DNA of 64,000 bases. Origin: Sipunculus nudus. Lineage: Eukaryota; Annelida; Sipuncula; Golfingiida; Sipunculidae. Location of the stretch: NCBI GenBank assembly GCA_026874595.1, contig CM049316.1, positions 51,779,676 through 51,843,675 on the forward strand. The letters are read 5' to 3'. The position numbers and the translations under genes are program-made. Below, one piece after another: positions 3,481 to 64,000 of this stretch. Each line of letters starts with the position of its first letter. The stretch's first letter is position 1. The notes under the pieces are model-generated. The model saw only the letters and a list, made by a program, of their open reading frames with translations. It was not told the origin of the DNA and searched no databases.

Positions 3481-3511
3481 CGTTAAGCTTCTAAGTTGTT
3501 TTCTTTAATTC
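3481..3511 (+). repeat. Degenerate left edge of the satellite array
   Basis: This stretch aligns loosely with the monomer tail (GTTAA followed by a T-rich segment and TTTAATTCACTCTAG), with many substitutions relative to interior copies. The first full monomer, from 3512, is also divergent. Decay at array edges is expected where unequal exchange no longer homogenises repeats. Confidence 0.65.
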
Positions 3512-3680
3512 ACTCTAGAACGTCGAAAAACTAGTCAAGGTCTCTAATCTTCGAACTTAACCAAGATTTTGTTAACATACATCAGCACCGAAGAAATAAA
3601 ATACCTACGGTAAATACTTTTTCAAGATATCCCGCTCACATTGTAAATGTTAACACATGCCAGTTTTTTCCTATAATTGG
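3512..3680 (+). repeat. Monomer class E (169 bp)
   Basis: Its diagnostic segment after AAGGT reads CTCTAATCTTCGAACTT and it often has GACCAAG and GTTAAC further on. The tail is ATTTTTCGAGATATCCCGC followed by CACATTGTAAATG. The nuclear-receptor-like motif is broken in this class (TCAAGGTCT). This copy is the divergent array-edge example. Confidence 0.85.
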
Positions 3681-3849
3681 CTCTAAAACGTCGAAAAAGA
3701 TAAGTCAAGGTCACCAATCTTCGAACTTGACCGAGATTTTGTTAATATACATCAGCAGCGAAGAAATAAAATTCCTACAGTAAATCTATTTTGAGATATC
3801 CCGCTCACAAGGTAAATGTTAACACATGCCAGTGTGTTCCTATAATTCG
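3681..3849 (+). repeat. Monomer class A (167-169 bp)
   Basis: Its diagnostic segment is CACCAATCTTCGAACTTGAC, with ATTCCTACAGTAAATCTATT downstream and a GTGTGTTCC tail. It carries a perfect TCAAGGTCA. The 169-bp form has two extra A residues after CGTCG. A is the commonest class and has multiplied between B-C-D groups in the 4.3-9 kb stretch. Confidence 0.85.
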
Positions 3850-4017
3850 CTCTAAAACGTCGAAAAATAAGTCAAGGTCACCCATCTTTGAACTTGACCG
3901 AGCATTTGTTAATATATATCAACACCGAAGAAATAAAATTCCTACAGTAAATCCTTTTTGAGATATCCCGCTCACAAGGTAAATGTAAACACATGCCAGT
4001 TATTTTCCTATAATTCG
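3850..4017 (+). repeat. Monomer class B (168 bp)
   Basis: Its diagnostic features are CACCCATCTTTGAACTTGAC, GAGCATTTGTTAATATATAT and AACACCGAAG, with AAATGTAAACACATGCC in the tail. It carries a perfect TCAAGGTCA. Some later copies have an expanded TA run here. Confidence 0.85.
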
Positions 4018-4183
4018 CTCTAAAAAGTCGAAAATAAGTCAAGGTCAAACATCTTTGAACGTGACCGAGATTTTGTTAATATACATCAGCACCGAAGAAA
4101 TAAAATACCTACGGTAAATCCTTTTTGAGATATCCCGCTCACATTGTAAATGTGAACACATGCCAGTTTTTTCCTATAATTCG
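4018..4183 (+). repeat. Monomer class C (166 bp)
   Basis: Its diagnostic features are CTCTAAAAAGTCGAAAATAAG at the start and AAACATCTTTGAACGTGACC after AAGGTC. It carries a perfect TCAAGGTCA and the ACCTACGGTAAATCC tail. Confidence 0.85.
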
Positions 4184-4346
4184 CTCTAAAACGTCGAAAA
4201 GTAAGTCAAGGTTACCCATCTTAGAATTTGACCGAGATTTTGTTAATATACATCAGCACAGAAGAAATAAAATTCTTACGGTAAATCCTTTTCGAGATAT
4301 CCTGCTCACAAGGCAAATGTTAAAATACACTTTTTTTCTAATTTGG
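4184..4346 (+). repeat. Monomer class D (163 bp)
   Basis: Its diagnostic features are GAAAAGTAAGTCAAGGTTA, CCCATCTTAGAATTTGACC, CAGAAG, ATTCTTACGG, GATATCCTGCTCACAAGGC and a shortened tail (TTAAAATACACTTTTTTTC). The nuclear-receptor-like motif is altered (TCAAGGTTA). It is the shortest main class. Confidence 0.85.
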
Positions 4347-7300
4347 CTCTAAAACGTCGAAAAATAAGTCAAGGTCTCTAATCTTCGAACTTGACCAAGA
4401 TTTTGTTAATATACATCAGCACCGAAGAAATAAAATACCTAAGGTAAAACCTTTTTCGAGATATCCCGCTCACATTGTAAATGTTAACACATGCCAGTTT
4501 TTTTCCTATAATTGGCTCTAAAACGTCGAAAAAAATAAGTCAAGGTCACCAATCTTCGAACTTGACCGAGATTTTGTTAATATACATCAGCACCGAAGAA
4601 ATAAAATTCCTACAGTAAATCTATTTTGAGATATCCCGCTCACAAGGTAAATGTTAACACATGCCAGTGTGTTCCTATAATTCGCTCTAAAACGTCGAAA
4701 AATAAGTCAAGGTCACCAATCTTCGAACTTGACCGAGATTTTGTTAATATACATCAGCACAGAAGAAATAAAATTCTTACGGTAAATACTTTTCGAGATA
4801 TCATGCTTACAAGGTAAATGTTAACACATGCCAGTGTGTTCCTATAATTCGCTCTTAAACGTCGAAAAAAATAAGTCAAGGTCACCAATCTTCGAACTTG
4901 ACCGAGATTTTGTTAATATACATCAGCACCGGAGAAATAAAATTCCTACAGTAAATCTATTTTGAGATATCCCGCTCACAAGGTAAATGTTAACAAATGC
5001 CAGTGTGTTCCTATAATTCGCTCTAAAACGTCGATAAATAAGTCAAGGTCACCCATCTTTGAACTTGACCGAGCATTTGTTAATATATATCAACACCGAA
5101 GAAATAAAATTCCTACAGTAAATCCTTTTTGAGATATCCCGCTCACAAGGTAAATGTAAACACATGCCAGTTTTTTTCCAATAGTTCGCTCTAAAAAGTC
5201 GAAAATAAGTCAAGGTCAAACATCTTTGAACGTGACCGAGATTTTGTTTATATACATCAGCACCGAAGAAATAAAATACCTACGGTAAATCCTTTTTGAG
5301 ATATCCCGCTCACATTGTAAATGTTAACACATGCCAGTTTTTTTCCTATAATTCGTTCTAAAACGTAGAAAAGTAAGTCAAGGTTACCCATCTTAGAATT
5401 TGACCGAGATTTTGTTAATATACATCAGCACAGAAGAAATAAAATTCTCACGGTAAATCCTTTTCGAGATATCCTGCTCAAAAGGCAAATGTTAAAATAA
5501 ACTTTTTTTCTAATTTGGCTCTAAAACGTCGAAAAATAAGTCAAGGTCTCTAATCTTCGAACTTGACCGAGATTTTGTTAACATACATCAGCACCGAAGA
5601 AATAAAATACCTACGGTAAATCATTTTTCGAGATATCCCGCTCACATTGTAAATGTTAATACATGCCAGTTTTTTCCTATATATGGCTCTAAAACGTCGA
5701 AAAAAATAAGTCAAGGTCACCAATCTTCGAACTTGACCGAGATTTTGTTAATATACATCAGCACCGAAGAAATAAAATTCCTACAGTAAATCTATTTTGA
5801 GATATCCCGCTCACAAGGTAAATGTTAACACATGCCAGTGTGTGTTCCTATAATTCGCTCTAAAACGTCGAAAAATAAGTCAAGGTCACCAATCTTCGAA
5901 CTTGACCGAGATTTTGTTAATATACATCAGCACAGAAGAAATAAAATTCTTACGATAAATCCTTTTCGAGAAATCATGCTTACAAGGTAAATGTTAACAC
6001 ATGCCAGTGTGTTCCTATAATTTGCTCTAAACCGTCGAAAAAAATAAATCAAGGTCACCAATCTTCGAACGTGACCGAGATTTTGTTAATATACATCAGC
6101 ACCGAAGAAATAAAATTCCTACAGTAAATCTATTTTGAGATATCCCGCTCACAAGGTAAATGTTAACACATGCTAGTGTGTTCCTATAATTCGCTCTAAA
6201 ACGTCGAAAATAAGTCAAGGTCAAACATCTTTGAACGTGACCGAGATTTTGTTATTATACATCAGCACAGAAGAAATAAAATTCTTACGGTAAATCCTTT
6301 TCGAGATATCATGCTTACAAGGTAAATGTTAACACATGCCAGTGTGTTCCTATAATTCGCTCTAAAACGTCGAAAAATAAGTCAAGGTCACCAATCTTCG
6401 AACTTGACCGAGATTTTGTTAATATACATCAGCACCGAAGAAATAAAATTCCTACAGTAAATCCTTTTCGAGATATCATGCTTACAAGGTAAATGTTAAC
6501 ACATGCCAGTGTGTTCCTATAATTCGCTCTAAAACGTCGAAAAATAAGGCAAGGTCACCAATCTTCGAATTTGACCGAGATTTTGTTAATATACATCAGC
6601 ACCGAAGAAATAAAATTCCTACAGTAAATCTATTTTGAGATATCCCGCTCACAAGGTAAATGTTAACACATGCCAGTGTGTTCCTATAATTCGCTCTAAA
6701 ACGTCGAAAAAAATAAGTCAAGGTCACCAATCTTCGAACTTGACCGAGATTTTGTTAATATACATCTGCACCGGAGAAATAAAATTCCTACAGTAAATCT
6801 ATTTTGAGATATTCCGCTCACAAGGTAAATGTTAACACATGCCAGTGTGTTCCTATAATTCGCTCTAAAACGTCGATAAATAAGTCAAGGTCACCCATCT
6901 TTGAACTTGACCGAGCATTTGTTAATATATATCAACACCGAAGAAATAAAATTCCTACAGTAAATCCTTTTTGAGATATCCCGCTCACAAGGTAAATGTA
7001 AACACATGCCAGTTTTTTTCCTATAGTTCGCTCTAAAAAGTCGAAAATAAGTCAAGGTCAAACATCTTTGAACGTGACCGAGATTTTGTTAATATACATC
7101 AGCACCGAAGAAATAAAATACCTACGGTAAATCCTTTTTGAGATATCCCGCTCACATTTTAAATGTTACCACATGCCAGTTTTTTTTCCTATAATTCGCT
7201 CTAAAACGTCGAAAAGTAAGTCAAGGTTACCCATCTTAGAATTTGACCGAGATTTTGTTAATATACATCAGTACAGAAGAAATAAAATTCTTACGGTAAA

Positions 7301-13517: not shown

Positions 13518-15009
13518 ATGTTAACACATGCCAGTGTGTCCCTATAATTCGCTCTAAAACGTCGAAAAATAAGTCAAGGTCACCAATCTTCGGACTTGAC
13601 CGAGATTTTGTTAATATACATCAGCACCGAAGAAATAAAATTCCTACAGTAAATCTATTTTGAGATATCCCGCTCACAAGGTAAATGTTAACACATGCCA
13701 GTGTGTTCCTATAATTCGCTCTAAAACGTCGAAAAAAATAAGTCAAGGTCACCAATCTTCGAACTTGACCGAGATTTTGTTAATATACATCAGCACCGGA
13801 GAAATAAAATTCCTACAGTAAATCTATTTTGAGATATTCCGCTCACAAGGTAAATGTTAACACATGCCAGTGTGTTCCTATAATTCGCTCTAAAACGTCG
13901 ATAAATAAGTCAAGGTCACCCATCTTTGAACTTGACCGAGCATTTGTTAATATATATCAACACCGAAGAAATAAAATTCCTACAGTAAATCCTTTTTGAG
14001 ATATCCCGCTCACAAGGTAAATGTAAACACATGCCAGTTTTTTTCCTATAGTTCGCTCTAAAAAGTCGAAAATAAGTCAAGGTCAAACATCTTTGAACGT
14101 GATCGAGATTTTGTTAATATACATCAGCACCGAAGAAATAAAATACCTACGGTAAATCCTTTTTGAGATATCCCGCTCACATTTTAAATGTTACAACATG
14201 CCAGTTTTTTTTTCCTATAATTCGCTCTAAAACGTCGAAAAGTAAGTCAAGGTTATCCATCTTAGAATTTGACCGAGATTTTGTTAATATACATCAGTAC
14301 AGAAGAAATAAAATTCTTACGGTAAATCCTTTTCGAGATATCCTGCTCACAAGGCAAATGTTAAAATACACTTTTTTTCAAATTTGGCTCTAAAACGTCG
14401 AAAAATAAGTCAAGGTCTCTAATCTTCGAACTTGACCAAGATTTTGTTAACATACATCAGCACCGAAGAAATAAAATACCTACGGTAAATCATTTTTCGA
14501 GATATCCCGCTCACATTGTAAATGTTAACACATGCCAGTTTTTTCCTATAATTGGCTCTAAAACGTCGAAAAAAATAAGTTAAGGTCACCAATCTTCGAA
14601 CTTGACCGAGATTTTGTTTATATACATCAGCACCGAAGAAATAAAATTCCTACAGTAAATCTATTTTGAGATATCCCGCTCACAAGGTAAATGTTAACAC
14701 ATGCCAGTGTGTTCCTATAATTCGCTCTAAAACGTCGAAAAATAAGTCAAGGTCACCAATCTTCGAACTTGACCGAGATTTTGTTAATATACATCAGCTC
14801 CGAAGAAATAAAATTCCTACAGTAAATCTATTTTGAGATATCCCGCTCACAAGGTAAATGTTAACACATGCCAGTGTGTTCCTATAATTCGCTCTAAAAC
14901 GTCGAAAAATAAGTCAAGGTCACCCATCTTTGAACTTGACCGAGCATTTATTAATATATATCAACACCGAAGAAATAAAATTCCTACAGTAAATCCTTTT
15001 TGAGATATC
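13518..15009 (+). repeat. Copy 2 of the 2513-bp-offset block and lead-in to the 38-mer duplication
   Basis: It matches 11,005-12,240 up to about 14,752. The whole stretch recurs at an offset of 13,858 bp (27.4-28.87 kb), including the long T-tract monomer at 14,163/28,021. Confidence 0.75.
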
Positions 15010-18000
15010 CCGCTCACAAGGTAAATGTAAACACATGCCAGTTTTTTCCTATAGTTCGCTCTAAAAAGTCGAAAATAAGTCAAGGTTAGCCATCTTAGAA
15101 TTTGACCGAGATTTTGTTAATATACATCAGCACAGAAGAAATAAAATTCTTACGGTAAATCCTTTTCGAGATATCCTGCTCACAAGGCAAATGTTAAAAT
15201 ACACTTTTTTTCTAATTTGGCTCTAAAACGTCGAAAAATAAGTAAAGGTCTCTAATCTTCGAACTTGACCAAGATTTTGTTAACATACATCAGCACCGAA
15301 GAAATAAAATACCTACAGTAAATCATTTTTCGAGATATTCCGCTCACATTGTAAATGTTAACACATGCCAGTTTTTTCCTATAATTGGCTCTAAAACGTC
15401 GAAAAAAATAAGTCAAGGTCACCAATCTTCGAACTTGACCGAGATTTTGTTAATATACATCAGCACCGAAGAAATAAAATTCCTACAGTAAATCTATTTT
15501 GAGATATCCCGCTCACAAGGTAAATGTTAACACATGCCAGTGTGTTCCTATAATTCGCTCTAAAACGTCGAAAAATAAGTCAAGGTCACCAATCTTCGAA
15601 CTTGACCGAGATTTTGTTAATATACATCAGCACCGAAGAAATAAAATTCCTACAGTAAATCTATTTTGAGATATCCCGCTAACAATGTAAATGTTAACAC
15701 ATGCCAGTGTTTTCCTATAATTCGCTCTAAAACGTCGAAAAAAATAAGTCAAGGTCAAACATCTTTGAACGTGACCGAGATTTTGTTAATATACATCAGC
15801 ACAGAAAAAATAAAATTCTTACGGTAAATCCTTTTCGAGATATCATGCTTACAAGGTAAATGTTAACACATGCCAGTGTGTTCCTATAATTCGCTCTAAA
15901 ACGTCGAAAAATAAGTCAAGGTCACCAATTTTCGAACCTGACCAAGATTTTGTTAATATACATTAGCACCGAAGAAATAAAATTCCTACAGTAAATCTAT
16001 TTTGAGATATCCCGCTCACAAGGTGAATGTAAACACATGCCAGTTTTTTTCCTATAATTCGCTCTAAAAGGTCGAAAATAAGTCAAGGTCAAACATATTT
16101 GAACGTGACCGAGATTTTTCTTACCGAAGAAATAAAATACCTAGGGTAAATCATTTTTCGAGATATCCCGCTCACATTGTAAATGTTAACACATGCCAGT
16201 TTTTTCCTATAATTGGCTCTAAAACGTCGAAAAACATAAGTTAAGGTCACCAATCTTCGAACTTGACCGAGATTTTGTTTATATACATCAGCACCGAAGA
16301 AATAAAATTCCTACAGTAAATCTATTTTGAGATATCCCGCTCACAAGGTAAATGTTAACACATGCCAGTGTGTTCCTATAATTCGCTCTAAAACGTCGAA
16401 AAATAAGTCAAGGTCACCAATCTTCGAACTTGACCGAGATTTTGTTAATATACATCAGCTCCGAAGAAATAAAATTCCTACAGTAAATCTATTTTGAGAT
16501 ATCCCGCTCACAAGGTAAATGTTAACACATGCCAGTGTGTTCCTATAATTCGCTCTAAAACGTCGAAAAATAAGTCAAGGTCACCCATCTTTGAACTTGA
16601 CCGAGCATTTATTAATATATATCAACACCGAAGAAATAAAATTCCTACAGTAAATCCTTTTTGAGATATCCCGCTCACAAGGTAAATGTAAACACATGCC
16701 AGTTTTTTTCCAATAGTTCGCTCTAAAAAGTCGAAAATAAGTCAAGGTCAAACATCTTTGAACGTGACCGAGATTTTGTTTATATACATCAGCACCGAAG
16801 AAATAAAATACCTACGGTAAATCCTTTTTGAGATATCCCGCTCACATTGTAAATGTTAACACATGCCAGTTTTTTTCCTATAATTCGTTCTAAAACGTAG
16901 AAAAGTAAGTCAAGGTTACCCATCTTAGAATTTGACCGAGATTTTGTTAATATACATCGGCAGAGAAGAAATAAAATTCTCACGGTAAATCCTTTTCGAG
17001 ATATCCTGCTCAAAAGGCAAATGTTAAAATACACTTTTTTTCTAATTTGGCTCTAAAACGTCGAAAAATAAGTCAAGGTCTCTAATCTTCGAACTTGACC
17101 GAGATTTTGTTAACATACATCAGCACCGAAGAAATAAAATACCTTCGGTAAATCATTTTTCGAGATATCCCGCTCACATTGTAAATGTTAACACATGCCA
17201 GTTTTTTCCTATAATTGGCTCTAAAACGTCGAAAAAAATAAGTCAAGGTCACCAATCTTCGAACTTGACCGAGATTTTGTTAATATACATCAGCACCGAA
17301 GAAATAAAATTCCTACAGTAAATCTATTTTGAGATATCCCGCTCACAAGGTAAATGTTAACACATGCCAGTGTGTGTTCCAATAAATCGCTCTAAAACGT
17401 CGAAAAATAAGTCAAGGTCACCAATCTTCGAACTTGACCGAGATTTTGTTAATATACATCAGCACCGGAGAAATAAAATTCCTACAGTAAATCTATTTTG
17501 AGATATTCCGCTCACAAGGTAAATGTTAACACATGCCAGTGTGTTCCTATAATTCGCTCTAAAACGTCGATAAATAAGTCAAGGTCACCCATCTTTGAAC
17601 TTGACCGAGCATTTGTTAATATATATCAACACCGAAGAAATAAAATTCCTACAGTAAATCCTTTTTGAGATATCCCGCTCACAAGGTAAATGTAAACACA
17701 TGCCAGTTTTTTTCCTATAGTTCGCTCTAAAAAGTCGAAAATAAGTCAAGGTTAGCCATCTTAGAATTTGACCGAGATTTTGTTAAAATACATCAGCACA
17801 GAAGAAATAAAATTCTTACGGTAAATCCTTTTCGAGATATCCTGCTCACAAGGCAAATGTTAAAATACACTTTTTTTCTAATTTGGCTCTAAACAGTCGA
17901 AAATAAGTCAAGGTCAAACATCTTTGAACGTGACCGAGATTTTGTTAATATACATCAGCACCGAAGAAATAAAATACCTACGGTAAATCATTTTTCGAGA

Positions 18001-21000
18001 TATCCCGCTCACATTGTTAATGTTAACATATGCCAGTTTTTTCCTATAATTGGCTCTAAAACGTCGAAAAAAATAAGTCAAGGTCACCAATCTTCGAACT
18101 TGACCGAGATTTTGTTAATATACATCAGCACCGGAGAAATAAAATTCCTACAGTAAATCCTTTTTGAGATATCCCGCTCACAAGGTAAATGTTAACACAT
18201 GCCAGTGTGTTCCTATAATTCGCTCTAAAACGTCGAAAAATAAGTCAAGGTCACCCATCTTTGAACTTGACCGAGCATTTGTTAATATATATATATACAC
18301 CGAAGAAATAAAATTCCTACAGTAAATCTATTTTGAGATATCCCGCTAACAATGTAAATGTTAACACATGCCAGTGTTTTCCTATAATTCGCTCTAAAAA
18401 GTCGAAAATAAGTCAAGGTCAAACATCTTTGAACGTGACCGAGATTTTGTTAATATACATCAGCACAGAAAAAATAAAATTCTTACGGTAAATCCTTTTC
18501 GAGATATCATGCTTACAAGGTAAATGTTAACACATGCCAGTGTGTTCCTATAATTCGCTCTAAAACGTCGAAAAATAAGTCAAGGTCACCAATTTTCGAA
18601 CCTGACCAAGATTTTGTTAATATACATCAGCACCGAAGAAATAAAATACCTACGGTAAATCCTTTTTGAGATATCCCGCTCACATTGTAAATGTTAACAC
18701 ATGCCAGTGTGTCCCTATAATTCGCTCTAAAACGTCGAAAAATAAGTCAAGGTCACCAATCTTCGGACTTGACCGAGATTTTGTTAATATACATCAGCAC
18801 CGAAGAAATAAAATTCCTACAGTAAATCTATTTTGAGATATCCCGCTCACAAGGTAAATGTTAACACATGCCAGTGTGTTCCTATAATTCGCTCTAAAAC
18901 GTCGAAAAAAATAAGTCAAGGTCACCAATCTTCGAACTTGACCGAGATTTTGTTAATATACATCAGCACCGGAGAAATAAAATTCCTACAGTAAATCTAT
19001 TTTGAGATATTCCGCTCACAAGGTAAATGTTAACACATGCCAGTTTTTTTCCAATAGTTCGCTCTAAAAAGTCGAAAATAAGTCAAGGTCAAACATCTTT
19101 GAACGTGACCGAGATTTTGTTTATATACATCAGCACCGAAGAAATAAAATACCTACGGTAAATCCTTTTTGAGATATCCCGCTCACATTGTAAATGTTAA
19201 CACATGCCAGTTTTTTTCCTATAATTCGTTCTAAAACGTAGAAAAGTAAGTCAAGGTTACCCATCTTAGAATTTGACCGAGATTTTGTTAATATACATCG
19301 GCAGAGAAGAAATAAAATTCTCACGGTAAATCCTTTTCGAGATATCCTGCTCAAAAGGCAAATGTTAAAATACACTTTTTTTCTAATTTGGCTCTAAAAC
19401 GTCGAAAAATAAGTCAAGGTCTCTAATCTTCGAACTTGACCGAGATTTTGTTAACATACATCAGCACCGAAGAAATAAAATACCTTCGGTAAATCATTTT
19501 TCGAGATATCCCGCTCACATTGTAAATGTTAACACATGCCAGTTTTTTCCTATAATTGGCTCTAAAACGTCGAAAAAAATAAGTCAAGGTCACCAATCTT
19601 CGAACTTGACCGAGATTTTGTTAATATACATCAGCACCGAAGAAATAAAATTCCTACAGTAAATCTATTTTGAGATATCCCGCTCACAAGGTAAATGTTA
19701 ACACATGCCAGTGTGTGTTCCAATAAATCGCTCTAAAACGTCGAAAAATAAGTCAAGGTCACCAATCTTCGAACTTGACCGAGATTTTGTTAATATACAT
19801 CAGCACCGGAGAAATAAAATTCCTACAGTAAATCTATTTTGAGATATTCCGCTCACAAGGTAAATGTTAACACATGCCAGTGTGTTCCTATAATTCGCTC
19901 TAAAACGTCGATAAATAAGTCAAGGTCACCCATCTTTGAACTTGACCGAGCATTTGTTAATATATATCAACACCGAAGAAATAAAATTCCTACAGTAAAT
20001 CCTTTTTGAGATATCCCGCTCACAAGGTAAATGTAAACACATGCCAGTTTTTTTCCTATAGTTCGCTCTAAAAAGTCGAAAATAAGTCAAGGTTAGCCAT
20101 CTTAGAATTTGACCGAGATTTTGTTAAAATACATCAGCACAGAAGAAATAAAATTCTTACGGTAAATCCTTTTCGAGATATCCTGCTCACAAGGCAAATG
20201 TTAAAATACACTTTTTTTCTAATTTGGCTCTAAACAGTCGAAAATAAGTCAAGGTCAAACATCTTTGAACGTGACCGAGATTTTGTTAATATACATCAGC
20301 ACCGAAGAAATAAAATACCTACGGTAAATCATTTTTCGAGATATCCCGCTCACATTGTTAATGTTAACATATGCCAGTTTTTTCCTATAATTGGCTCTAA
20401 AACGTCGAAAAAAATAAGTCAAGGTCACCAATCTTCGAACTTGACCGAGATTTTGTTAATATACATCAGCACCGGAGAAATAAAATTCCTACAGTAAATC
20501 CTTTTTGAGATATCCCGCTCACAAGGTAAATGTTAACACATGCCAGTGTGTTCCTATAATTCGCTCTAAAACGTCGAAAAATAAGTCAAGGTCACCCATC
20601 TTTGAACTTGACCGAGCATTTGTTAATATATATATATACACCGAAGAAATAAAATTCCTACAGTAAATCTATTTTGAGATATCCCGCTAACAATGTAAAT
20701 GTTAACACATGCCAGTGTTTTCCTATAATTCGCTCTAAAAAGTCGAAAATAAGTCAAGGTCAAACATCTTTGAACGTGACCGAGATTTTGTTAATATACC
20801 TCAGCACAGAAAAAATAAAATTCTTACGGTAAATCCTTTTCGAGATATCATGCTTACAAGGTAAATGTTAACACATGCCAGTGTGTTCCTATAATTCGCT
20901 CTAAAACGTCGAAAAATAAGTCAAGGTCACCAATTTTCGAACCTGACCAAGATTTTGTTAATATACATCAGCACCGAAGAAATAAAATACCTACGGTAAA

Positions 21001-21359
21001 TCCTTTTTGAGATATCCCGCTCACATTGTAAATGTTAACACATGCCAGTGTGTCCCTATAATTCGCTCTAAAACGTCGAAAAATAAGTCAAGGTCACCAA
21101 TCTTCGGACTTGACCGAGATTTTGTTAATATACATCAGCACCGAAGAAATAAAATTCCTACAGTAAATCTATTTTGAGATATCCCGCTCACAAGGTAAAT
21201 GTTAACACATGCCAGTGTGTTCCTATAATTCGCTCTAAAACGTCGAAAAAAATAAGTCAAGGTCACCAATCTTCGAACTTGACCGAGATTTTGTTAATAT
21301 ACATCAGCACCGGAGAAATAAAATTCCTACAGTAAATCTATTTTGAGATATTCCGCTCA
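15010..21359 (+). repeat. 38-monomer higher-order unit, copy 1 (6344 bp)
   Basis: Markers in this block recur exactly 6344 bp downstream: AAGGTTAGCC at 15,081/21,425 and 17,751/24,095, and the CGGCAGAGAAG monomer at about 16,970/23,314. The two copies are directly adjacent, so this is a tandem duplication. The unit is about 10 monomers followed by two 14-monomer subunits. Few differences were seen by eye, for example AGTAAAGGTC near 15,243 against AGTCAAGGTC in copy 2. Confidence 0.88.
16690..19030 (+). repeat. 14-monomer subunit (2341 bp), copy 1
   Basis: Anchor positions from 16,721 to 19,062 give 14 intervals of 163-171 bp, totalling 2341 bp. The next subunit repeats it in tandem with near identity. 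Confidence 0.88.
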
Positions 21360-21371
21360 CAAGGTAAATGT
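19031..21371 (+). repeat. 14-monomer subunit (2341 bp), copy 2
   Basis: It repeats the preceding subunit base for base over long stretches. One private difference is ATATACCTCAGC near 20,800, where the others have ATATACATCAGC. Confidence 0.88.
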
Positions 21372-24300
21372 AAACACATGCCAGTTTTTTTCCTATAGTT
21401 CGCTCTAAAAAGTCGAAAATAAGTCAAGGTTAGCCATCTTAGAATTTGACCGAGATTTTGTTAATATACATCAGCACAGAAGAAATAAAATTCTTACGGT
21501 AAATCCTTTTCGAGATATCCTGCTCACAAGGCAAATGTTAAAATACACTTTTTTTCTAATTTGGCTCTAAAACGTCGAAAAATAAGTCAAGGTCTCTAAT
21601 CTTCGAACTTGACCAAGATTTTGTTAACATACATCAGCACCGAAGAAATAAAATACCTACAGTAAATCATTTTTCGAGATATTCCGCTCACATTGTAAAT
21701 GTTAACACATGCCAGTTTTTTCCTATAATTGGCTCTAAAACGTCGAAAAAAATAAGTCAAGGTCACCAATCTTCGAACTTGACCGAGATTTTGTTAATAT
21801 ACATCAGCACCGAAGAAATAAAATTCCTACAGTAAATCTATTTTGAGATATCCCGCTCACAAGGTAAATGTTAACACATGCCAGTGTGTTCCTATAATTC
21901 GCTCTAAAACGTCGAAAAATAAGTCAAGGTCACCAATCTTCGAACTTGACCGAGATTTTGTTAATATACATCAGCACCGAAGAAATAAAATTCCTACAGT
22001 AAATCTATTTTGAGATATCCCGCTAACAATGTAAATGTTAACACATGCCAGTGTTTTCCTATAATTCGCTCTAAAACGTCGAAAAAAATAAGTCAAGGTC
22101 AAACATCTTTGAACGTGACCGAGATTTTGTTAATATACATCAGCACAGAAAAAATAAAATTCTTACGGTAAATCCTTTTCGAGATATCATGCTTACAAGG
22201 TAAATGTTAACACATGCCAGTGTGTTCCTATAATTCGCTCTAAAACGTCGAAAAATAAGTCAAGGTCACCAATTTTCGAACCTGACCAAGATTTTGTTAA
22301 TATACATTAGCACCGAAGAAATAAAATTCCTACAGTAAATCTATTTTGAGATATCCCGCTCACAAGGTGAATGTAAACACATGCCAGTTTTTTTCCTATA
22401 ATTCGCTCTAAAAGGTCGAAAATAAGTCAAGGTCAAACATATTTGAACGTGACCGAGATTTTTCTTACCGAAGAAATAAAATACCTAGGGTAAATCATTT
22501 TTCGAGATATCCCGCTCACATTGTAAATGTTAACACATGCCAGTTTTTTCCTATAATTGGCTCTAAAACGTCGAAAAACATAAGTTAAGGTCACCAATCT
22601 TCGAACTTGACCGAGATTTTGTTTATATACATCAGCACCGAAGAAATAAAATTCCTACAGTAAATCTATTTTGAGATATCCCGCTCACAAGGTAAATGTT
22701 AACACATGCCAGTGTGTTCCTATAATTCGCTCTAAAACGTCGAAAAATAAGTCAAGGTCACCAATCTTCGAACTTGACCGAGATTTTGTTAATATACATC
22801 AGCTCCGAAGAAATAAAATTCCTACAGTAAATCTATTTTGAGATATCCCGCTCACAAGGTAAATGTTAACACATGCCAGTGTGTTCCTATAATTCGCTCT
22901 AAAACGTCGAAAAATAAGTCAAGGTCACCCATCTTTGAACTTGACCGAGCATTTATTAATATATATCAACACCGAAGAAATAAAATTCCTACAGTAAATC
23001 CTTTTTGAGATATCCCGCTCACAAGGTAAATGTAAACACATGCCAGTTTTTTTCCAATAGTTCGCTCTAAAAAGTCGAAAATAAGTCAAGGTCAAACATC
23101 TTTGAACGTGACCGAGATTTTGTTTATATACATCAGCACCGAAGAAATAAAATACCTACGGTAAATCCTTTTTGAGATATCCCGCTCACATTGTAAATGT
23201 TAACACATGCCAGTTTTTTTCCTATAATTCGTTCTAAAACGTAGAAAAGTAAGTCAAGGTTACCCATCTTAGAATTTGACCGAGATTTTGTTAATATACA
23301 TCGGCAGAGAAGAAATAAAATTCTCACGGTAAATCCTTTTCGAGATATCCTGCTCAAAAGGCAAATGTTAAAATACACTTTTTTTCTAATTTGGCTCTAA
23401 AACGTCGAAAAATAAGTCAAGGTCTCTAATCTTCGAACTTGACCGAGATTTTGTTAACATACATCAGCACCGAAGAAATAAAATACCTTCGGTAAATCAT
23501 TTTTCGAGATATCCCGCTCACATTGTAAATGTTAACACATGCCAGTTTTTTCCTATAATTGGCTCTAAAACGTCGAAAAAAATAAGTCAAGGTCACCAAT
23601 CTTCGAACTTGACCGAGATTTTGTTAATATACATCAGCACCGAAGAAATAAAATTCCTACAGTAAATCTATTTTGAGATATCCCGCTCACAAGGTAAATG
23701 TTAACACATGCCAGTGTGTGTTCCAATAAATCGCTCTAAAACGTCGAAAAATAAGTCAAGGTCACCAATCTTCGAACTTGACCGAGATTTTGTTAATATA
23801 CATCAGCACCGGAGAAATAAAATTCCTACAGTAAATCTATTTTGAGATATTCCGCTCACAAGGTAAATGTTAACACATGCCAGTGTGTTCCTATAATTCG
23901 CTCTAAAACGTCGATAAATAAGTCAAGGTCACCCATCTTTGAACTTGACCGAGCATTTGTTAATATATATCAACACCGAAGAAATAAAATTCCTACAGTA
24001 AATCCTTTTTGAGATATCCCGCTCACAAGGTAAATGTAAACACATGCCAGTTTTTTTCCTATAGTTCGCTCTAAAAAGTCGAAAATAAGTCAAGGTTAGC
24101 CATCTTAGAATTTGACCGAGATTTTGTTAAAATACATCAGCACAGAAGAAATAAAATTCTTACGGTAAATCCTTTTCGAGATATCCTGCTCACAAGGCAA
24201 ATGTTAAAATACACTTTTTTTCTAATTTGGCTCTAAACAGTCGAAAATAAGTCAAGGTCAAACATCTTTGAACGTGACCGAGATTTTGTTAATATACATC

Positions 24301-37076: not shown

Positions 37077-37193
37077 CTCTAAAACGTCGAAAAATAAGTC
37101 AAGGTCACCAATCTTCGAACTTGACCGAGATTTTGTTAATATACATCAGCACCGAAGAAATAAAATTTCAGTCAGTTTTTTTCCTATAATTCG
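37077..37193 (+). repeat. Truncated 117-bp monomer, copy 2
   Basis: It has the same internal deletion as the copy at 35,607, which points to one deletion event followed by block duplication. Confidence 0.8.
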
Positions 37194-41984: not shown

Positions 41985-44900
41985 TCCTTTTTGAGATATC
42001 CCGCTCACAAGGTAAATGTAAACACATGCCAGTTTTTTTCCTATAGTTCGCTCTAAAAAGTCGAAAATAAGTCAAGGTCAAACATCTTTGAACGTGACCG
42101 AGATTTTGTTAATATACATCAGCACCGAAGAAATAAAATACCTACGGTAAATCCTTTTCGAGATATCATGCTTACAAGGTAAATGTTAACACATGCCAGT
42201 GTGTCCCTATAATTCGCTCTAAAACGTCGAAAAATAAGTCAAGGTCACCAATCTTCGAACTTGACCGAGATTTTGTTAATATACATCAGCACCGAAGAAA
42301 TAAAATTCCTACAGTAAATCTATTTTGAGATATCCCGCTCACAAGGTAAATGTAAATACATGCCAGTGTGTTCCTATAATTCGCTCTAAAACGTCGAAAA
42401 ATAAGTCAAGGTCACCAATTTTCGAACTTGACCGAGATTTTGTCAATATACATCAGCACCGAAGAAATAAAATTCCTACAGTAAATCTATTTTGAGATAT
42501 CCCGCTCACAAGGTAAATGTTACCACATGCCAGTTTTTTTCCTATAATTCGCTCTAAAACGTCGAAAAGTAAGTCAAGGTTAGCCATCTTAGAATTTGAC
42601 CGAGATTTTGTTAATATACATCAGCACAGAAGAAATAAAATTCTTACGGTAAATCCTTTTCGAGATATCCTGCTCACAAGGCAAATGCTAAAATACACTT
42701 TTTTTCTAATTTGGCTCTAAAACGTGGAAAAATAAGTCAAGGTCTCTAATCTTCGAACTTGACCAAGATTTTGTTAACATACATCAGCACCGAAGAAATA
42801 AAATACCTACGGTAAATCATTTTTCGAGATATTCCGCTCACATTGTAAATGTTAACACATGCCAGTTTTTTCCTATAATTGGCTCTAAAACGTCGAAAAA
42901 TAAGTCAAGGTCACCAATCTTCGAACTTGACCGAGATTTTGTTAATATACATCAGCACCGAAGAAATAAAATTCCTACAGTAAATCTATTTTGAGATATC
43001 CCGCTCACAAGGTAAATGTTAACACATGCCAGTGTGTTCCTATAATTCGCTCTAAAACGTCGAAAAATAAGTCAAGGTCACCAATCTTCGAACTTGACCG
43101 AGATTTTGTTAATATACATCAGCACCGAAGAAACAAAATTCCTACAGTAAATCTATTTTGAGATATCCCGCTAAAAAGGTAAATGTTAACACATGCCAGT
43201 GTTTTCCTATAATTCGCTCTAAAACGTCGAAAAAAATAAGTCAAGGTCAAACATCTTTGAACGTGACCGAGATTTTGTTAATATACATCAGCACAGAAGA
43301 AATAAAATTCTTACGGTAAATCCTTTTCGAGATATCATGCTTACAAGGTAAATGTTAACACATGCCAGTGTGTTCCTATAATTCGCTCTAAAACGTCGAA
43401 AAATAAGTCAAGGTCACCAATTTTCGAACTTGACCGAGATTTTGTTAATATACATCAGCACCGAAGAAATAAAATTCCTACAGTAAATCCTTTTTGAGAT
43501 ATCCCGCTCACAAGGTAAATGTAAACACATGGTAGTTTTTTTCCTGTAATTCGCTCTAAACAGTCGAAAATAAGTCAAGGTCAAACATCTTTGAACGTGA
43601 CCGAGATTTTGTTAATATACATCAGCACCGAAGAAATAAAATACCTACGGTAAATCATTTTTGAGATATCCCGCTCACAAGGTAAATGTAAACACATGCC
43701 AGTTTTTTTCCTATAGTTCGCTCTAAAAAGTCGAAAATAAGTCAAGGTCAAACATCTTTGAACGTGACCGAGATTTTGTTAATATACATCAGCACCGAAG
43801 AAATAAAATACCTACGGTAAATCCTTTTCGAGATATCATGCTTACAAGGTAAATGTTAACACATGCCAGTGTGTCCCTATAATTCGCTCTAAAACGTCGA
43901 AAAATAAGTCAAGGTCACCAATCTTCGAACTTGACCGAGATTTTGTTAATATACATCAGCACCGAAGAAATAAAATTCCTACAGTAAATCTATTTTGAGA
44001 TATCCCGCTCACAAGGTAAATGTTAATACATGCCAGTGTGTTCCTATAATTCGCTCTAAAACGTCGAAAAATAAGTCAAGGTCACCAATTTTCGAACTTG
44101 ACCGAGATTTTGTCAATATACATCAGCACCGAAGAAATAAAATTCCTACAGTAAATCTATTTTGAGATATCCCGCTCACAAGGTAAATGTTACCACATGC
44201 CAGTTTTTTTCCTATAATTCGCTCTAAAACGTCGAAAAGTAAGTCAAGGTTAGCCATCTTAGAATTTGACCGAGATTTTGTTAATATACATCAGCACAGA
44301 AGAAATAAAATTCTTACGGTAAATCCTTTTCGAGATATCCTGCTCACTAGGCAAATGCTAAAATACACTTTTTTTCTAATTTGGCTCTAAAACGTGGAAA
44401 AATAAGTCAAGGTCTCTAATCTTCGAACTTGACCAAGATTTTGTTAACATACATCAGCACCGAAGAAATAAAATACCTACGGTAAATCATTTTTCGAGAT
44501 ATTCCGCTCACATTGTAAATGTTAACACATGCCAGTTTTTTCCTATAATTGGCTCTAAAACGTCGAAAAATAAGTCAAGGTCACCAATCTTCGAACTTGA
44601 CCGAGATTTTGTTAATATACATCAGCACCGAAGAAATAAAATTCCTACAGTAAATCTATTTTGAGATATCCCGCTCACAAGGTAAATGTTAACACATGCC
44701 AGTGTGTTCCTATAATTCGCTCTAAAACGTCGAAAAATAAGTCAAGGTCACCAATCTTCGAACTTGACCGAGATTTTGTTAATATACATCAGCACCGAAG
44801 AAACAAAATTCCTACAGTAAATCTATTTTGAGATATCCCGCTAAAAAGGTAAATGTTAACACATGCCAGTGTTTTCCTATAATTCGCTCTAAAACGTCGA

Positions 44901-46510
44901 AAAAAATAAGTCAAGGTCAAACATCTTTGAACGTGACCGAGATTTTGTTAATATACATCAGCACAGAAGAAATAAAATTCTTACGGTAAATCCTTTTCGA
45001 GATATCATGCTTACAAGGTAAATGTTAACACATGCCAGTGTGTTCCTATAATTCGCTCTAAAACGTCGAAAAATAAGTCAAGGTCACCAATTTTCGAACT
45101 TGACCGAGATTTTGTTAATATACATCAGCACCGAAGAAATAAAATTCCTACAGTAAATCCTTTTTGAGATATCCCGCTCACAAGGTAAATGTAAACACAT
45201 GGTAGTTTTTTTCCTGTAATTCGCTCTAAACAGTCGAAAATAAGTCAAGGTCAAACATCTTTGAACGTGACCGAGATTTTGTTAATATACATCAGCACCG
45301 AAGAAATAAAATACCTACGGTAAATCATTTTTGAGATATCCCGCTCACAAGGTAAATGTAAACACATGCCAGTTTTTTTCCTATAGTTCGCTCTAAAAAG
45401 TCGAAAATAAGTCAAGGTCAAACATCTTTGAACGTGACCGAGATTTTGTTAATATACATCAGCACCGAAGAAATAAAATACCTACGGTAAATCCTTTTCG
45501 AGATATCATGCTTACAAGGTAAATGTTAACACATGCCAGTGTGTCCCTATAATTCGCTCTAAAACGTCGAAAAATAAGTCAAGGTCACCAATCTTCGAAC
45601 TTGACCGAGATTTTGTTAATATACATCAGCACCGAAGAAATAAAATTCCTACAGTAAATCTATTTTGAGATATCCCGCTCACAAGGTAAATGTTAATACA
45701 TGCCAGTGTGTTCCTATAATTCGCTCTAAAACGTCGAAAAATAAGTCAAGGTCACCAATTTTCGAACTTGACCGAGATTTTGTCAATATACATCAGCACC
45801 GAAGAAATAAAATTCCTACAGTAAATCTATTTTGAGATATCCCGCTCACAAGGTAAATGTTACCACATGCCAGTTTTTTTCCTATAATTCGCTCTAAAAC
45901 GTCGAAAAGTAAGTCAAGGTTAGCCATCTTAGAATTTGACCGAGATTTTGTTAATATACATCAGCACAGAAGAAATAAAATTCTTACGGTAAATCCTTTT
46001 CGAGATATCCTGCTCACAAGGCAAATGCTAAAATACACTTTTTTTCTAATTTGGCTCTAAAACGTGGAAAAATAAGTCAAGGTCTCTAATCTTCGAACTT
46101 GACCAAGATTTTGTTAACATACATCAGCACCGAAGAAATAAAATACCTACGGTAAATCATTTTTCGAGATATTCCGCTCACATTGTAAATGTTAACACAT
46201 GCCAGTTTTTTCCTATAATTGGCTCTAAAACGTCGAAAAATAAGTCAAGGTCACCAATCTTCGAACTTGACCGAGATTTTGTTAATATACATCAGCACCG
46301 AAGAAATAAAATTCCTACAGTAAATCTATTTTGAGATATCCCGCTCACAAGGTAAATGTTAACACATGCCAGTGTGTTCCTATAATTCGCTCTAAAACGT
46401 CGAAAAATAAGTCAAGGTCACCAATCTTCGAACTTGACCGAGATTTTGTTAATATACATCAGCACCGAAGAAACAAAATTCCTACAGTAAATCTATTTTG
46501 AGATATCCCG
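41985..46510 (+). repeat. 10-monomer higher-order block, about 2.7 copies (1670 bp)
   Basis: Identical monomers recur at 42,517, 44,187 and 45,857, exactly 1670 bp apart, which is twice the 835-bp pentamer. The copies share private variants such as TTCCTGTAATTCG (43,543/45,213), AAACAAAATTCC and AAAACGTGG. One substitution was spotted (CACTAGGC at 44,346 against CACAAGGC). The block starts where the match fails left of 41,985 and ends at about 46,510, where an extra monomer appears. Confidence 0.86.
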
Positions 46511-49806: not shown

Positions 49807-51770
49807 TACATCAGCACCGAAGAAATAAAATACCTACGGTAAATCATTTTTCGAGATATTCCGCTCACATTGTAAATGTTAACACATGCCAGTTTTTTCC
49901 TATAATTGGCTCTAAAACGTCGAAAAATAAGTCAAGGTCACCAATCTTCGAACTTGACCGAGATTTTGTTAATATACATCAGCACCGAAGAAATAAAATT
50001 CCTACAGTAAATCTATTTTGAGATATCCCGCTAACAAGGTAAATGTTAACACATGCCAGTGTTTTCCTATAATTCGCTCTAAAACGTCGAAAAAAATAAG
50101 TCAAGGTCAAACATCTTTGAATGTGACCGAGATTTTGTTAATATACATCAGCACAGAAGAAATAAAATTCTTACGGTAAATCCTTTTCGAGATATCATGC
50201 TTACAAGGTAAATGTTAACACATGCCAGTGTGTTCCTATAATTCGCTCTAAAACGTCGAAAAATAAGTCAAGGTTACCAATTTTCGAACTTGACCGAGAT
50301 TTTGTTAATATACATCAGCACCGAAGAAATAAAATTCCTACAGTAAATCTATTTTGAGATATCCCGCTCACAAGGTAAATGTAAACACATGCCAGTTTTT
50401 TTCCTATAATTCGCTCTAAAAGGTCGAAAATAAGTCAAGGTCAAAGATATTTGAACGTGACCGAGATTTTGTTAATATACATCAGCACCGAAGAAATAAA
50501 ATACCTAGGGTAAATCATTTTTCGAGATATCCCGCTCACATTGTAAATGTTAACACATGCCAGTTTTTTCCTATAATTGGCTCTAAAACGTCGAAAAAAA
50601 TAAGTTAAGGTCACCAATCTTCGAACTTGACCGAGATTTTGTTTATATACATCAGCACCGAAGAAATAAAATTCCTACAGTAAATCTATTTTGAGATATC
50701 CCGCTCACAAGGTAAATGTTAACACATGCCAGTGTGTTCCTATAATTCGCTCTAAAACGTCGAAAAATAAGTCAAGGTCACCAATCTTCGAACTTGACCG
50801 AGATTTTGTTAATATACATCAGCACCGAAGAAATAAAATTCCTACAGTAAATCTATTTTGAGATATCCCGCTCACAAGGTAAATGTTAACACATGCCAGT
50901 GTGTTCCTATAATTCGCTCTAAAACGTCGAAAAATAAGTCAAGGTCACCCATCTTTGAACTTGACCGAGCATTTATTAATATATATCAACACCGAAGAAA
51001 TAAAATTCCTACAGTAAATCCTTTTTGAGATATCCCGCTCACAAGGTAAATGTAAACACATGCCAGTTTTTTTCCTATAATTCGCTCTAAAAAGTCGAAA
51101 ATAAGTCAAGGTCAAACATCTTTGAACGTGACCGAGATTTTGTTAATATACATCAGCACCGAAGAAATAAAATACCTACGGTAAATCTATTTTAAGATAT
51201 CCCGCTCATATTGAAAATGTTAACACATGGTAGTTTTTTTCCTATAATTGGCTCTAAAACGTCGAAAAAAATAAGTCAAGGTCACCAATCTTCGAACTTG
51301 ACCGAGATTTTGTTAATATACATCAGCACCGGAGAAATAAAATTCCTACAGTAAATCCTTTTTGAGATATCCCGCTCACAAGGTAAATGTAAACACATGC
51401 CAGTTTTTCCCTATAATTCGCTCTAAAAAGTCGAAAATAAGTCAAGGTCAAACATCTTTGAACGTGACCGAGATTTTGTTAATATACATAAGCACAGAAG
51501 AAATAAAATTCTTACAGTAAATCCTTTTTGAGATATCCCGCTCACAAGGTAAATGTAAACACATGCCAGTTTTTTCCTATAATTGGCTCTAAAACGTCGA
51601 AAAAAATAAGTCAAGGTCACCAATCTTCGAACTTGACCGAGATTTTGTTAATATACATCAGCACCGAAGAAATAAAATACCTAGGGTAAATCATTTTTCG
51701 AGATATCCCGCTCACATTGTAAATGTTAACACATGCCAGTTTTTTCCTATAATTGGCTCTAAAACGTCGA
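49807..51770 (+). repeat. 16-monomer-offset block, copy 1 (recurs at +2683 and +8222 bp)
   Basis: Markers GAATGTGACC (50,119/52,802/58,341) and TCAAAGATATTTG (50,441/53,124/58,663) give offsets of 2683 and 5539 bp. The left 270 bp also match the far right end of the window at an offset of 13,925 bp. Confidence 0.8.
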
Positions 51771-52194
51771 AAAATAAGTCAAGGTCACCCATCTTTGAAC
51801 TTGACCGAGCATTTATTAATATATATCAACACCGAAGAAATAAAATTCCTACAGTAAATCCTTTTTGAGATATCCCGCTCACAAGGTAAATGTAAACACA
51901 TGCCAGTTTTTTTCCTATAATTCGCTCTAAAAAGTCGAAAATAAGTCAAGGTCAAACATCTTTGAACGTGACCGAGATTTTGTTAATATACATCAGCACA
52001 GAAGAAATAAAATTCTTACGGTAAATCCTTTTCGAGATATCATGCTTACAAGGTAAATGTTAACACATGCCAGTGTGTTCCTATAATTCGCTCTAAAACG
52101 GCGAAAAATAAGTTAAGGTCACCAATCTTCTAACTTGACCGAGATTTTGTTAATATACATCAGCACCGAAGAAATAAAATTTCTACAGTAAATA

Positions 52195-60700: not shown

Positions 60701-63461
60701 AGATTTTGTTAATATACATCAGCACCGAAGAAATAAAATACCTACGGTAAATCATTTTTCGAGATATCCCGCTCACATTGTAAATGTTAACACATGCCAA
60801 TTTTTTCCTATAATTCGCTCTAAAACGTCGAAAAAAATAAGTCAAGGTCACCAATCTTCGAACTTGACCGAGATTTTGTTAACATACATCAGCACCGAAG
60901 AAATAAAATTTCTGCAGTAAATCTATTTTGAGATATCCCGCTAACAAGGTAAATGTTAACACATGCCATTGTTTTCCTATAATTCGCTCTAAAACGTCGA
61001 AAAAAATAAGCCAAGGTCAAACATCTTTGAACGTACCCGAGCATTTGTTAATATATATCAACACCGAAGAAATAAAATTCTTACGGTAAATCCTTTTCGA
61101 GATATCATGCTTACAAGGTAAATGTTATCACATGCCAGTGTGTTCCTATAATTCGCTCTAAAACGTCGAAAAATAAGTCAAGGTCACCAATCTTCGAACT
61201 TGACCGAGATTTTGTTAATATACATCAGCACCGAAGAAATAAAATTCCTACAGTAAATCTATTTTGAGATATCCCGCTAACAAGGTAAATGTTAACACAT
61301 GCCAGTGTTTTCCTATAATTCGCTCTAAAACGTCGAAAAAAATAAGTCAAGGTCAAACATCTTTGAACGTGACCGAGATTTTGTTAATATACATCAGCAC
61401 AGAAGAAATAAAATTCTTACGGTAAATCCTTTTCGAGATATCATGCTTACAAGGTAAATGTTAACACATGCCAGTGTGTTTCTATAATTCGCTCTAAAAC
61501 GTCGAAAAATAAGTCAAGGTCACCAATTTTCGAACTTGACCGAGATTTTGTTAATATACATCAACACCGAAGAAATAAAATTCCTACAGTAAATCCTTTT
61601 TGAGATATCCCGCTCACAAGGTAAATGTAAACACATGCCAGTTTTTTTCCTATAATTCGCTCTAAAAAGTCGAAAATAAGTCAAGGTCAAACATCTTTGA
61701 ACGTGACCGAGATTTTGTTAATATACATCAGCACAGAAGAAATAAAATTCTTACGGTAAATCCTTTTCGAGATATCATGCTTACAAGGTAAATGTTAACA
61801 CATGCCAGTGTGTTCCTATAATTCGCTCTAAAACGGCGAAAAATAAGTTAAGGTCACCAATCTTCTAACTTGACCGAGATTTTGTTAATATACATCAGCA
61901 CCGAAGAAATAAAATTTCTACAGTAAATATATTTTGAGATATCCCGCTCACAAGGTAAATTTTAACACATGCCAGTGTGTTCCTATAATTCGCTCTAAAA
62001 CGTCGAAAAATAGGTCAAGGTCACCGATCTTTGAACTTGACCGAGCATTTATTAATATATATCAACACCGAAGAAATAAAATTCCTACAGTAAATCCTTT
62101 TTTAAGATATCCCGCTCACAAGGTAAATGTAAACACATGGAAGTTTTTTTCCTATAATTCGCTCTAAACAGTCGAAAATAAGTCAAGGTCAAACATCTTT
62201 GAACGTGACCGAGATTTTGTTAATATACATCAGCACCGAAGAAATAAAATACCTACGGTAAATCATTTTTCGAGATATCCCGCTCACATTGTTAATGTTA
62301 ACACATGCCAGTTTTTTCCTATAATTGGCTCTAAAACGTCGAAAAAAATAAGTCAAGGTCACCAATCTTCGAACTTGACCGAGATTTTGTTAATATACAT
62401 CAGCACCGGAGAAATAAAATTCCTACAGTAAATCCTTTTTGAGATATCCCGCTCACAAGGTAAATGTTAACACATGCCAGTGTGTTCCTATAATTCGCTC
62501 TAAAACGTCGAAAAATAAGTCAAGGTCACCCATCTTTGAACTTGACCGAGCATTTGTTAATATTTATATACACCGAAGAAATAAAATTCCTACAGTTAAT
62601 CCTTTTTGAGATATCCCGCTCACAAGGTAAATGTAAACACATGCCATTTTTTTTCCTATAATTCGCTCTAAAAAGTCGAAAAATAAGTCAAGGTCACCCA
62701 TCTTTGAACTTGACCGAGCATTTGTTAATATTTATATACACCGAAGAAATAAAATTCCTACAGTAAATCCTTTTTGAGATATCCCGCTCACAAGGTAAAT
62801 GTAAACACATGCCAGTTTTTTCCTATAATTCGCTCTAAAAAGTCGAAAATAAGTCAAGGTCAAACATCTTTGAACGTGACCGAGATTTTGTTAATATACA
62901 TAAGCACAGAAGAAATAAAATTCTTACAGTAAATCCTTTTTGAGATATCCCGCTCACAAGGTAAATGTAAACACATGCCAGTTTTTTTCCTATAATTGGC
63001 TCTAAAACGTCGAAAAAAATAAGTCAAGGTCACCAATCTTCGAACTTGACCGAGATTTTGTTAATATACATCAGCACCGAAGAAATAAAATACCTACGGT
63101 AAATCCTTTTCGAGATATCATGCTTACAAGGTAAATGTTAACACATGCCAGTGTGTCCCTTTAATTCGCTCTAAAACGTCGAAAAATAAGTCAAGGTCAA
63201 ACATCTTTGAACGTGACCGAGATTTTGTTAATATACATCAACACCGAAGAAATAAAATTCCTACAGTAAATCCTTTTCGAGATATCATGCTTACAAGGTA
63301 AATGTTAACACATGCCAGTGTGTTCCTATAATTCGCTCTAAAACGTCGAAAAATAAGTCAAGGTCACCAATTTTCGAACTTGACCGAGATTTTGTTAATA
63401 TACATCAGCACCGAAGAAATAAAATTCCTACAGTAAATCTATTTTGAGATATCCAGCTCAC
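57735..63461 (+). repeat. Large tandem duplication, copy 2 (~5727 bp) with monomer gain and replaced segment
   Basis: It follows copy 1 at an offset of 5539 bp until an extra B-type monomer appears near 59,600-59,770, after which the offset is 5707 bp (ATACCGCTCA at 54,891/60,598). The segment 61.02-61.7 kb differs in monomer succession from the expected partner. The match then resumes at 5536-5538 bp and ends at 5706 bp. Confidence 0.78.
61012..61140 (+). repeat. Mosaic monomer joining C, B and D-like segments
   Basis: It has a C-class head (AAACATCTTTGAACGT), a B-class middle (GAGCATTTGTTAATATATAT, AACACCGAAG) and a D-like tail (ATTCTTACGG, GATATCATGCTTAC). The join shows a private GTACCCGAGC. 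It is the clearest single chimera and looks like an exchange product. Confidence 0.7.
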
Positions 63462-64000
63462 AAGGTAAATGTTACCACATGCCAGTTTTTTTCCTAGAAT
63501 TCGCTCTAAAACGTCGAAAAGTAAGTCAAGGTTAGCCATCTTAGAATTTGACCGAGATTTTGTTAATATACATCAGCACAGAAGAAATAAAATTCTTACG
63601 GTAAATCCTTTTCGAGATATCCTGCTCACAAGGCAAATGTTAAAATACACTTTTTTTCTAATTCGGCTCTAAAACGTCGAAAAATAAGTCAAGGTCTCTA
63701 ATCTTCGAACTTAACCAAGATTTTGTTAACATACATCAGCACCGAAGAAATAAAATACCTACGGTAAATCATTTTTCGAGATATTCCGCTCACATTGTAA
63801 ATGTTAACACATGCCAGTTTTTTCCTATAATTGGCTCTAAAACGTCGAAAAATAAGTCAAGGTCACCAATCTTCGAACTTGACCGAGATTTTGTTAATAT
63901 ACATCAGCACCGAAGAAATAAAATTCCTACAGTAAATCTATTTTGAGATATCCCGCTAACAAGATAAATGTTAACACATGCCAGTGTTTTCCTATAATTC
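62945..64000 (+). repeat. Right-end block matching 49,020-50,075 (offset 13,925 bp)
   Basis: A monomer with the private variant TTCCTAGAATTCGC at 63,491 recurs at 49,566. The following D and E monomers share CTAATTCGGCTC and AACTTAACCAAG. The array continues past the window edge with no sign of ending. Confidence 0.8.

Follow-up and report, generated by a model that had tools for sequence, protein, structure and literature searches.

A one-strand 167-bp satellite array with irregular, nested higher-order structure, plausibly centromeric or pericentromeric

The locus described here raises the question of whether a long array of a ~167-bp tandem repeat belongs to a centromere or to some other heterochromatic block. 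By the window we mean the whole stretch of 64,000 nucleotides that was analysed. A first-pass annotation had proposed that it carries about 60 kb of satellite in one orientation, beginning at 3481 and comprising about 360 monomers of ~167 bp, without insertion or inversion, and that this array is a candidate centromeric domain. The extent, the unit length and the number of monomers were borne out, with the array running on one strand from about 3494 to the end of the window.

3494..64000, forward strand: satellite array of 361 complete monomers, modal length 167 bp, G+C 34%, continuing past the right end of the window

When the window was searched with TRF, six rows were returned, three with a period of 167 (3497-35697, 35711-37167 and 37177-64000), one with a period of 334 (3494-64000) and two with a period of 116. 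The anchor AGAAATAAAAT, with up to 2 mismatches allowed, matched 362 times beyond position 3400, and 173 of the 361 spacings between successive matches were exactly 167 bp, the full range being 116-185 bp. All the complete monomers lie on one strand and are arranged head to tail, and three anchors gave 0 matches on the reverse strand of the entire window, in agreement with the claim that inversions are absent. The companion claim, that there is no insertion, holds for anything larger than ~18 bp, but small indels are present. Six monomers carry the larger of these: two of 116 bp (starting at 35686 and 37156), and three of 155 bp (starting at 15973, 22317 and 29833). The sixth, at 36302, measures 185 bp and duplicates a short stretch of its own sequence. 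Many head-to-tail copies of one unit constitute satellite DNA in the sense of a long tandem array. Arrays built in this way are well known, and this one is real and well preserved.

Comparison of the monomers with one another revealed a second level of organization. The mean identity of all monomer pairs is 89.1%, and the values at lag 1 (88.2%) and lag 2 (88.0%) lie slightly below it. The 334-bp unit was the top-scoring row from TRF, yet it is no real dimer, because the lag-2 identity falls under the all-pairs mean. The nearest neighbour of a monomer, anywhere in the array, is on average 99.6% identical to it (median 100%), values that count only twins within the window, so that monomers near either end may have closer ones outside. 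The 361 monomers comprise 179 distinct sequences, and clustering at 5% distance yielded 25 clusters, 21 with at least 2 members and 4 singletons. Near-identical monomers follow one another without a break for up to 37 units, at lag 38 (15137-21313 against 21481-27657), whereas runs in 100 order shuffles never exceeded 4. Other long runs extend over 31 monomers (lag 83) and 16 monomers (lag 10). Runs of at least 5 near-identical monomers include 70.6% of the monomers, compared with 0.0% as the rounded mean of 10 order shuffles. Six of the 120 lags tested (83, 16, 38, 69, 107 and 45) stand above the 99th percentile that shuffling gives for the largest lag. When lags 1-120 were scanned, no single dominant n-mer period of the kind seen in alpha satellite was found; pairs exceeding 97% identity made up a fraction of 0.205 at most, at lag 83, and several lags compete. 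The higher-order structure that had been claimed therefore stands far above chance, and its form is irregular and nested, without a single period.

This structure resolves into tandem duplications of whole blocks of monomers, the larger of which are as follows.

3762..5936, forward strand: edge block with a 7-monomer unit, 1.86 copies, 97.6% alike
14971..27657, forward strand: 38-monomer unit (6343 bp) in two tandem copies, 99.9% alike
30158..35352, forward strand: 8-monomer unit (1341 bp), 3.88 copies, 98.8% alike, appearing also as 16
41796..46468, forward strand: 10-monomer unit (1669 bp), 2.8 copies, 99.5% alike

Between the two copies of the 38-monomer unit, 2 of 6177 bases are different in a comparison that takes in 37 of the monomers. 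Nested in each copy is a tandem duplication of 14 monomers (2341 bp; 99.8%), which is accordingly seen twice. Additional tandem duplications of 2 and 3 monomers range from 95 to 99.7% identity. The monomer register is preserved in the duplicated blocks of 7, 8, 10, 14 and 38 monomers. With block copies of 7 to 38 monomers that are 97.6-99.9% alike, set against 89.1% for all pairs, these are higher-order repeats.

The near-identical pairs are not distributed evenly along the array, and two differently composed domains adjoin near 35.4-37.3 kb.

35353..37271, no strand assigned: border zone between two higher-order domains, containing both 116-bp monomers and the 185-bp monomer

The strongest depletion was obtained with a split at 35353, across which near-identical pairs occur at 0.59 of expectation, and the depletion is nearly as strong for splits from there to ~36136. 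In the initial test, which allowed splits over the wide range 20-340 and used 500 order shuffles, at least one shuffle fell below the observed ratio (lowest 0.548), and only after this were the splits restricted to monomers 100-260. Within the restricted range, no order shuffle and no shuffle of 20-monomer blocks came down to 0.59 (0 of 1000 each), as against 2 of 1000 shuffles of 40-monomer blocks. When the wide range was then repeated, the value was reached twice in 1000 order shuffles, at splits 20 and 27, and three times in 1000 shuffles of 40-monomer blocks. Monomers belonging to classes confined to one side number 57 of 349, compared with a shuffle mean of 6.9 and a maximum of 24 (n=1000), in a count that favours this result in that the border was taken from the data and the 12 border-zone monomers were excluded. 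The left edge of the array is also distinct, being less homogenised than the remainder. By the same in-window measure used above, nearest-neighbour identity is 98.7% in the first 20 monomers and 99.7% elsewhere, and stepping a 20-monomer block along the array by 5 gave no second value this low. Somewhat reduced values, 99.1% and 99.2%, were seen in the blocks that begin at 33675 and 60395.

Inspection of the variants suggests that many of them look mosaic. For 12 of the 21 classes and 2 of the 4 singletons, no more than 5 in 1000 column permutations did as well as the two-parent fit, in a test whose permutations, like the order shuffles, ignore shared descent and in which parents are indistinguishable from offspring. 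At this level the other 9 classes and 2 singletons fail. Among the clearest apparent mosaics is class N, with 11 differences when fitted to one parent and 1 when fitted to two. A single monomer provides a further example.

51668..51835, forward strand: probable mosaic monomer, its start like class B and the remainder like class C, with 2 differences for two parents and 10 for one

To the left of the array, the first 3.4 kb of the window belongs to a Ty3/gypsy-type retroelement.

1..1635, forward strand: integrase frame with Integrase_H2C2, rve, SH3_Tf2-1 and Integrase_p58_C, truncated by the window start
1617..2147, forward strand: RNase H frame (RT_RNaseH, E 7.6e-40), downstream of the integrase
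2354..2365, forward strand: purine-rich tract immediately preceding the probable 3' LTR
2366..3413, forward strand: probable 3' LTR, opening with TG, its end not fixed
3414..3493, forward strand: junction, either degenerate satellite or the end of the retroelement LTR

The status of the region from 2366 as an LTR is one that we infer. No core domain of a reverse transcriptase was among the Pfam matches in frames 1-1635 and 1617-2147, and the element therefore appears to be broken there. Its order of domains recalls the Gmr1 clade of Ty3/gypsy elements, in which integrase is reported to lie upstream of RT/RNase H (PMC6238403) and which occurs in several phyla (PMC8556966). The flank is alike in that integrase precedes RNase H, a likeness of domain order, and unlike in that a reverse transcriptase core was not reported in it. 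The position at which satellite gives way to retroelement is approximate. BLAST similarity to the monomer consensus begins at 3494, and the earlier start of 3481 falls inside the uncertain interval 3414-3494 without coinciding with the BLAST start. Extension of the array back to 3414 reveals a weak, borderline resemblance. Its global score was matched or exceeded in 0 of the 167 windows taken from the flank and in 1 of the 150 shuffles, its local score in 3 and 8 of them respectively. Since the retroelement adjoins the left edge, either this edge is a true one or the element was inserted inside a longer array.

How far this anatomy bears on a centromeric role may be judged by comparison with known systems. 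Primate alpha satellite (~171 bp) is similar in unit length and in its head-to-tail arrangement, and there too block copies are far closer than single monomers. The monomers of an alpha higher-order repeat are more divergent from each other, and one fixed n-mer usually rules the array; in the present array the monomers are 89% alike, no period rules, and the CENP-B box does not rise above chance. For this last comparison we scored the motif NTTCGNNNNANNCGGGN, which we take to be the CENP-B box. The best site in the consensus carries 6 of the 9 essential bases, a score reached by 1617 of 2000 shuffles and thus no better than chance, and across the array the best sites carry 7 of 9 (109 forward, 14 reverse), with no full match. 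Many centromeres are without a CENP-B box. In Arabidopsis CEN178 the block sizes are irregular, as they are here. CEN178 also resembles the present array in its nucleosome-scale unit, in its long one-family arrays and in having higher-order repeats definable as consecutive runs of near-identical monomers; CEN178 is centromere-associated (PMC10199239), which the present array, viewed over 60 kb, may or may not be.

Among invertebrates, the comparisons with the limpet and beetle satellites rest on their description. The bivalve satellites BIV160 and Cg170 belong to the same length class, ~160-170 bp (PMC5139131, PMC7348941), and when two printed BIV160 primers were scored against the consensus, 338 of 1000 and 952 of 1000 of their own shuffles reached the score, a comparison that covers the primers only (PMC5139131). 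In Crassostrea gigas, the 170-bp Cg170 is reported at the primary constrictions of several chromosomes, where its signal overlaps CenH3 in part, yet it falls below the ChIP enrichment cut-off; the CenH3 ChIP recovered DNA transposons, rDNA, LTR and non-LTR elements, an integrated virus, satDNA and unidentified sequences (PMC7348941). Oyster satellites are reported as widely scattered and linked to Helitrons (PMC12692304). PcH-sat of the limpet Patella caerulea is likewise AT-rich and of nucleosome length, differs in its 179-bp unit, and is regarded by its authors as leaning toward the centromeric class (PMC11121367). Tribolium TCAST is an invertebrate satellite with higher-order structures, and its variants are linked to CenH3 chromatin; its higher-order repeats are described as heterogeneous and mixed with extraneous sequence, none of which was seen in the present array (PMC7598501). 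Nucleosome-length units have been found in centromeric, pericentromeric and telomeric satellites alike (PMC8122249), so that a length of 167 bp is not specific to centromeres. With precedents among invertebrates on both sides, neither the size of the unit nor the length of the array is decisive by itself.

Within the unit itself, the consensus contains a weak 10-bp series of AA/TT, reached by 34 of 2000 shuffles and 52 of 2000 4-mer-block shuffles with a spacing measure that was picked after the counts had been seen, and this may be at most a hint of nucleosome positioning. The single orientation, the nucleosome length, the higher-order repeats and the lack of any mobile element seen inside fit a centromeric or pericentromeric array. 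They fit other heterochromatic blocks as well. We therefore regard a centromeric or pericentromeric location as plausible, the two together drawing about half of our confidence.

In the reading that we favour, to which we assign a probability of about one half, the stretch of satellite seen here would be the leftmost 60 kb, starting at its edge, of a large heterochromatic array that is most likely centromeric or pericentromeric. As we read the anatomy, a 167-bp unit is set head to tail, and whole blocks of 7 to 38 monomers were later duplicated in register, repeatedly and in nested fashion. Monomer variants look like mosaics of each other, each of the two adjoining domains was homogenised on its own, and homogenisation went less far at the left edge. 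The molecular process suggested by this anatomy is unequal crossing-over together with conversion between copies in the array, and the array would be packaged as heterochromatin within or beside the centromere. In-register blocks of many sizes and identities, mosaics, a less homogenised edge and separate domains are expected from unequal exchange and conversion, processes that have been proposed for satellites (PMC10199239, PMC8122249). Rolling-circle amplification of excised circles, followed by reinsertion, would also be expected to give in-register block repeats such as the 2.8 copies of the 10-mer and the 3.88 copies of the 8-mer; in our judgement, nested duplications of unequal identity and mosaics are explained more simply by repeated exchange, and the rolling-circle route is rather unlikely. 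A part of the block structure might instead be an artefact of assembly, for instance a false duplication of the 6.3-kb 38-mer. That its copies differ so little speaks for this, but they do differ, and the 7-, 8-, 10- and 14-mer duplications, at 97.6 to 99.8% identity, lie elsewhere or are nested, so that we consider such an error distinctly improbable.

The explanations that concern the location of the array overlap and are not all mutually exclusive. A narrower form of the favoured reading is that the array is an active centromere core, with CENP-A nucleosomes on it and kinetochore-linked recombination driving the recent block duplications. The nucleosome-length unit, the long array in which no mobile elements were seen and the very high similarity of the interior block copies are in keeping with this, but with a CENP-B box at chance level and a view limited to 60 kb beside an apparent edge it is doubtful. 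A more specific picture still, modelled on the layered expansion of primate centromeres, is that of an animal (perhaps invertebrate) centromere with two adjacent, separately homogenised domains, the interior being the kinetochore site and the left edge an older margin; this is speculative, and we think it unlikely. A block of non-centromeric heterochromatin, whether subtelomeric, interstitial or on a sex or B chromosome, could have grown by the same exchanges, and it is a substantial if tentative alternative, in that the anatomy records growth rather than location and nothing specific to centromeres was found in the window. TTAGGG and CCCTAA are absent from the window, which counts against a block of this kind, although weakly given so short a stretch. 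A Helitron-type mobile element carrying tandem repeats, as described for the oyster Cg170 repeats, is favoured by the similar unit length in oysters (PMC7348941) and by the retroelement that adjoins the array. It is nevertheless very improbable, since 361 monomers are free of any insertion above ~18 bp, the Helitron-linked arrays of oyster are described as short (PMC12692304), and the neighbouring element is no Helitron, because it carries integrase and RNase H domains. Should the favoured centromeric reading hold, the locus would add an irregular higher-order array to a field in which information on such centromeric arrays comes mostly from primates and plants. An assembled satellite of 60 kb has the further merit that duplication sizes, relative ages, a domain border and mosaic variants are directly readable from it.

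Several searches bear on the identity of the two sequence types. Exact satellite patterns gave 0 matches in viral and prokaryotic contig collections, which says little for an animal satellite, and a pattern scan of the same kinds of collection with the integrase piece gave two matches, neither a confirmed relative. Among the matches listed, only the shortest of four satellite fragments matched the text of papers, with unrelated titles. The monomer is likewise unnamed, among the matches listed, in titles and abstract openings on mollusc, bivalve, gastropod, invertebrate, Tribolium and CEN178 satellites, where sequences are seldom printed, and neither 167 nor 166 begins a word in the main text of one mussel satellitome (PMC12818792). 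ARAGORN predicted no tRNA genes in the whole window. A single Rfam match in 1-8000, to SNORD49, lies within the integrase frame below the gathering score and was taken as chance. Open frames overlapping 3494-4000, the stretch of the array that was scanned for frames, reach at most 82 aa from stop to stop. CpG is present in the array without depletion, the ratio of observed to expected being 1.34, compared with 0.93 in the flank.

The satellite array (3494-64000, + strand) is richer in CpG than the sequence to its left, with an observed/expected ratio of 1.34, computed over copies that are not independent, versus 0.93 in that flank. This over-representation would fit a repeat that lacks heavy germ-line methylation, or a young one. 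TCAAGGTCA, an extended nuclear-receptor half-site, was present in 279 of the 361 monomers, and the array's reverse strand had 0 copies of it. In 198/361 monomers there is a GTCAAG...CTTGAC dyad, and in 87/361 a variant of it with CGTGAC. The recurrence of TCAAGGTCA and the dyad across monomers may reflect mere descent from a single ancestral unit.

When monomers were fitted as mosaics of two parents, the first-found best breakpoints of monomer classes N and M and of the probable mosaic monomer starting at 51668 shared one alignment column, consensus position 88. This coincidence may mark a preferred exchange site or just the location of informative differences. Two short monomers and a flanking element were also noted:

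35686, 116-bp monomer, about 51 bp short, in the border zone between two higher-order domains
37156, 116-bp monomer, about 51 bp short, in the same border zone
1-2147, Ty3/gypsy-type retroelement, integrase and RNase H domains by Pfam

Pfam reported no RT core in the two frames of this retroelement that were searched, and it is apparently broken. Its integrase lies first with RNase H downstream, an arrangement that is also reported for Gmr1-clade elements.
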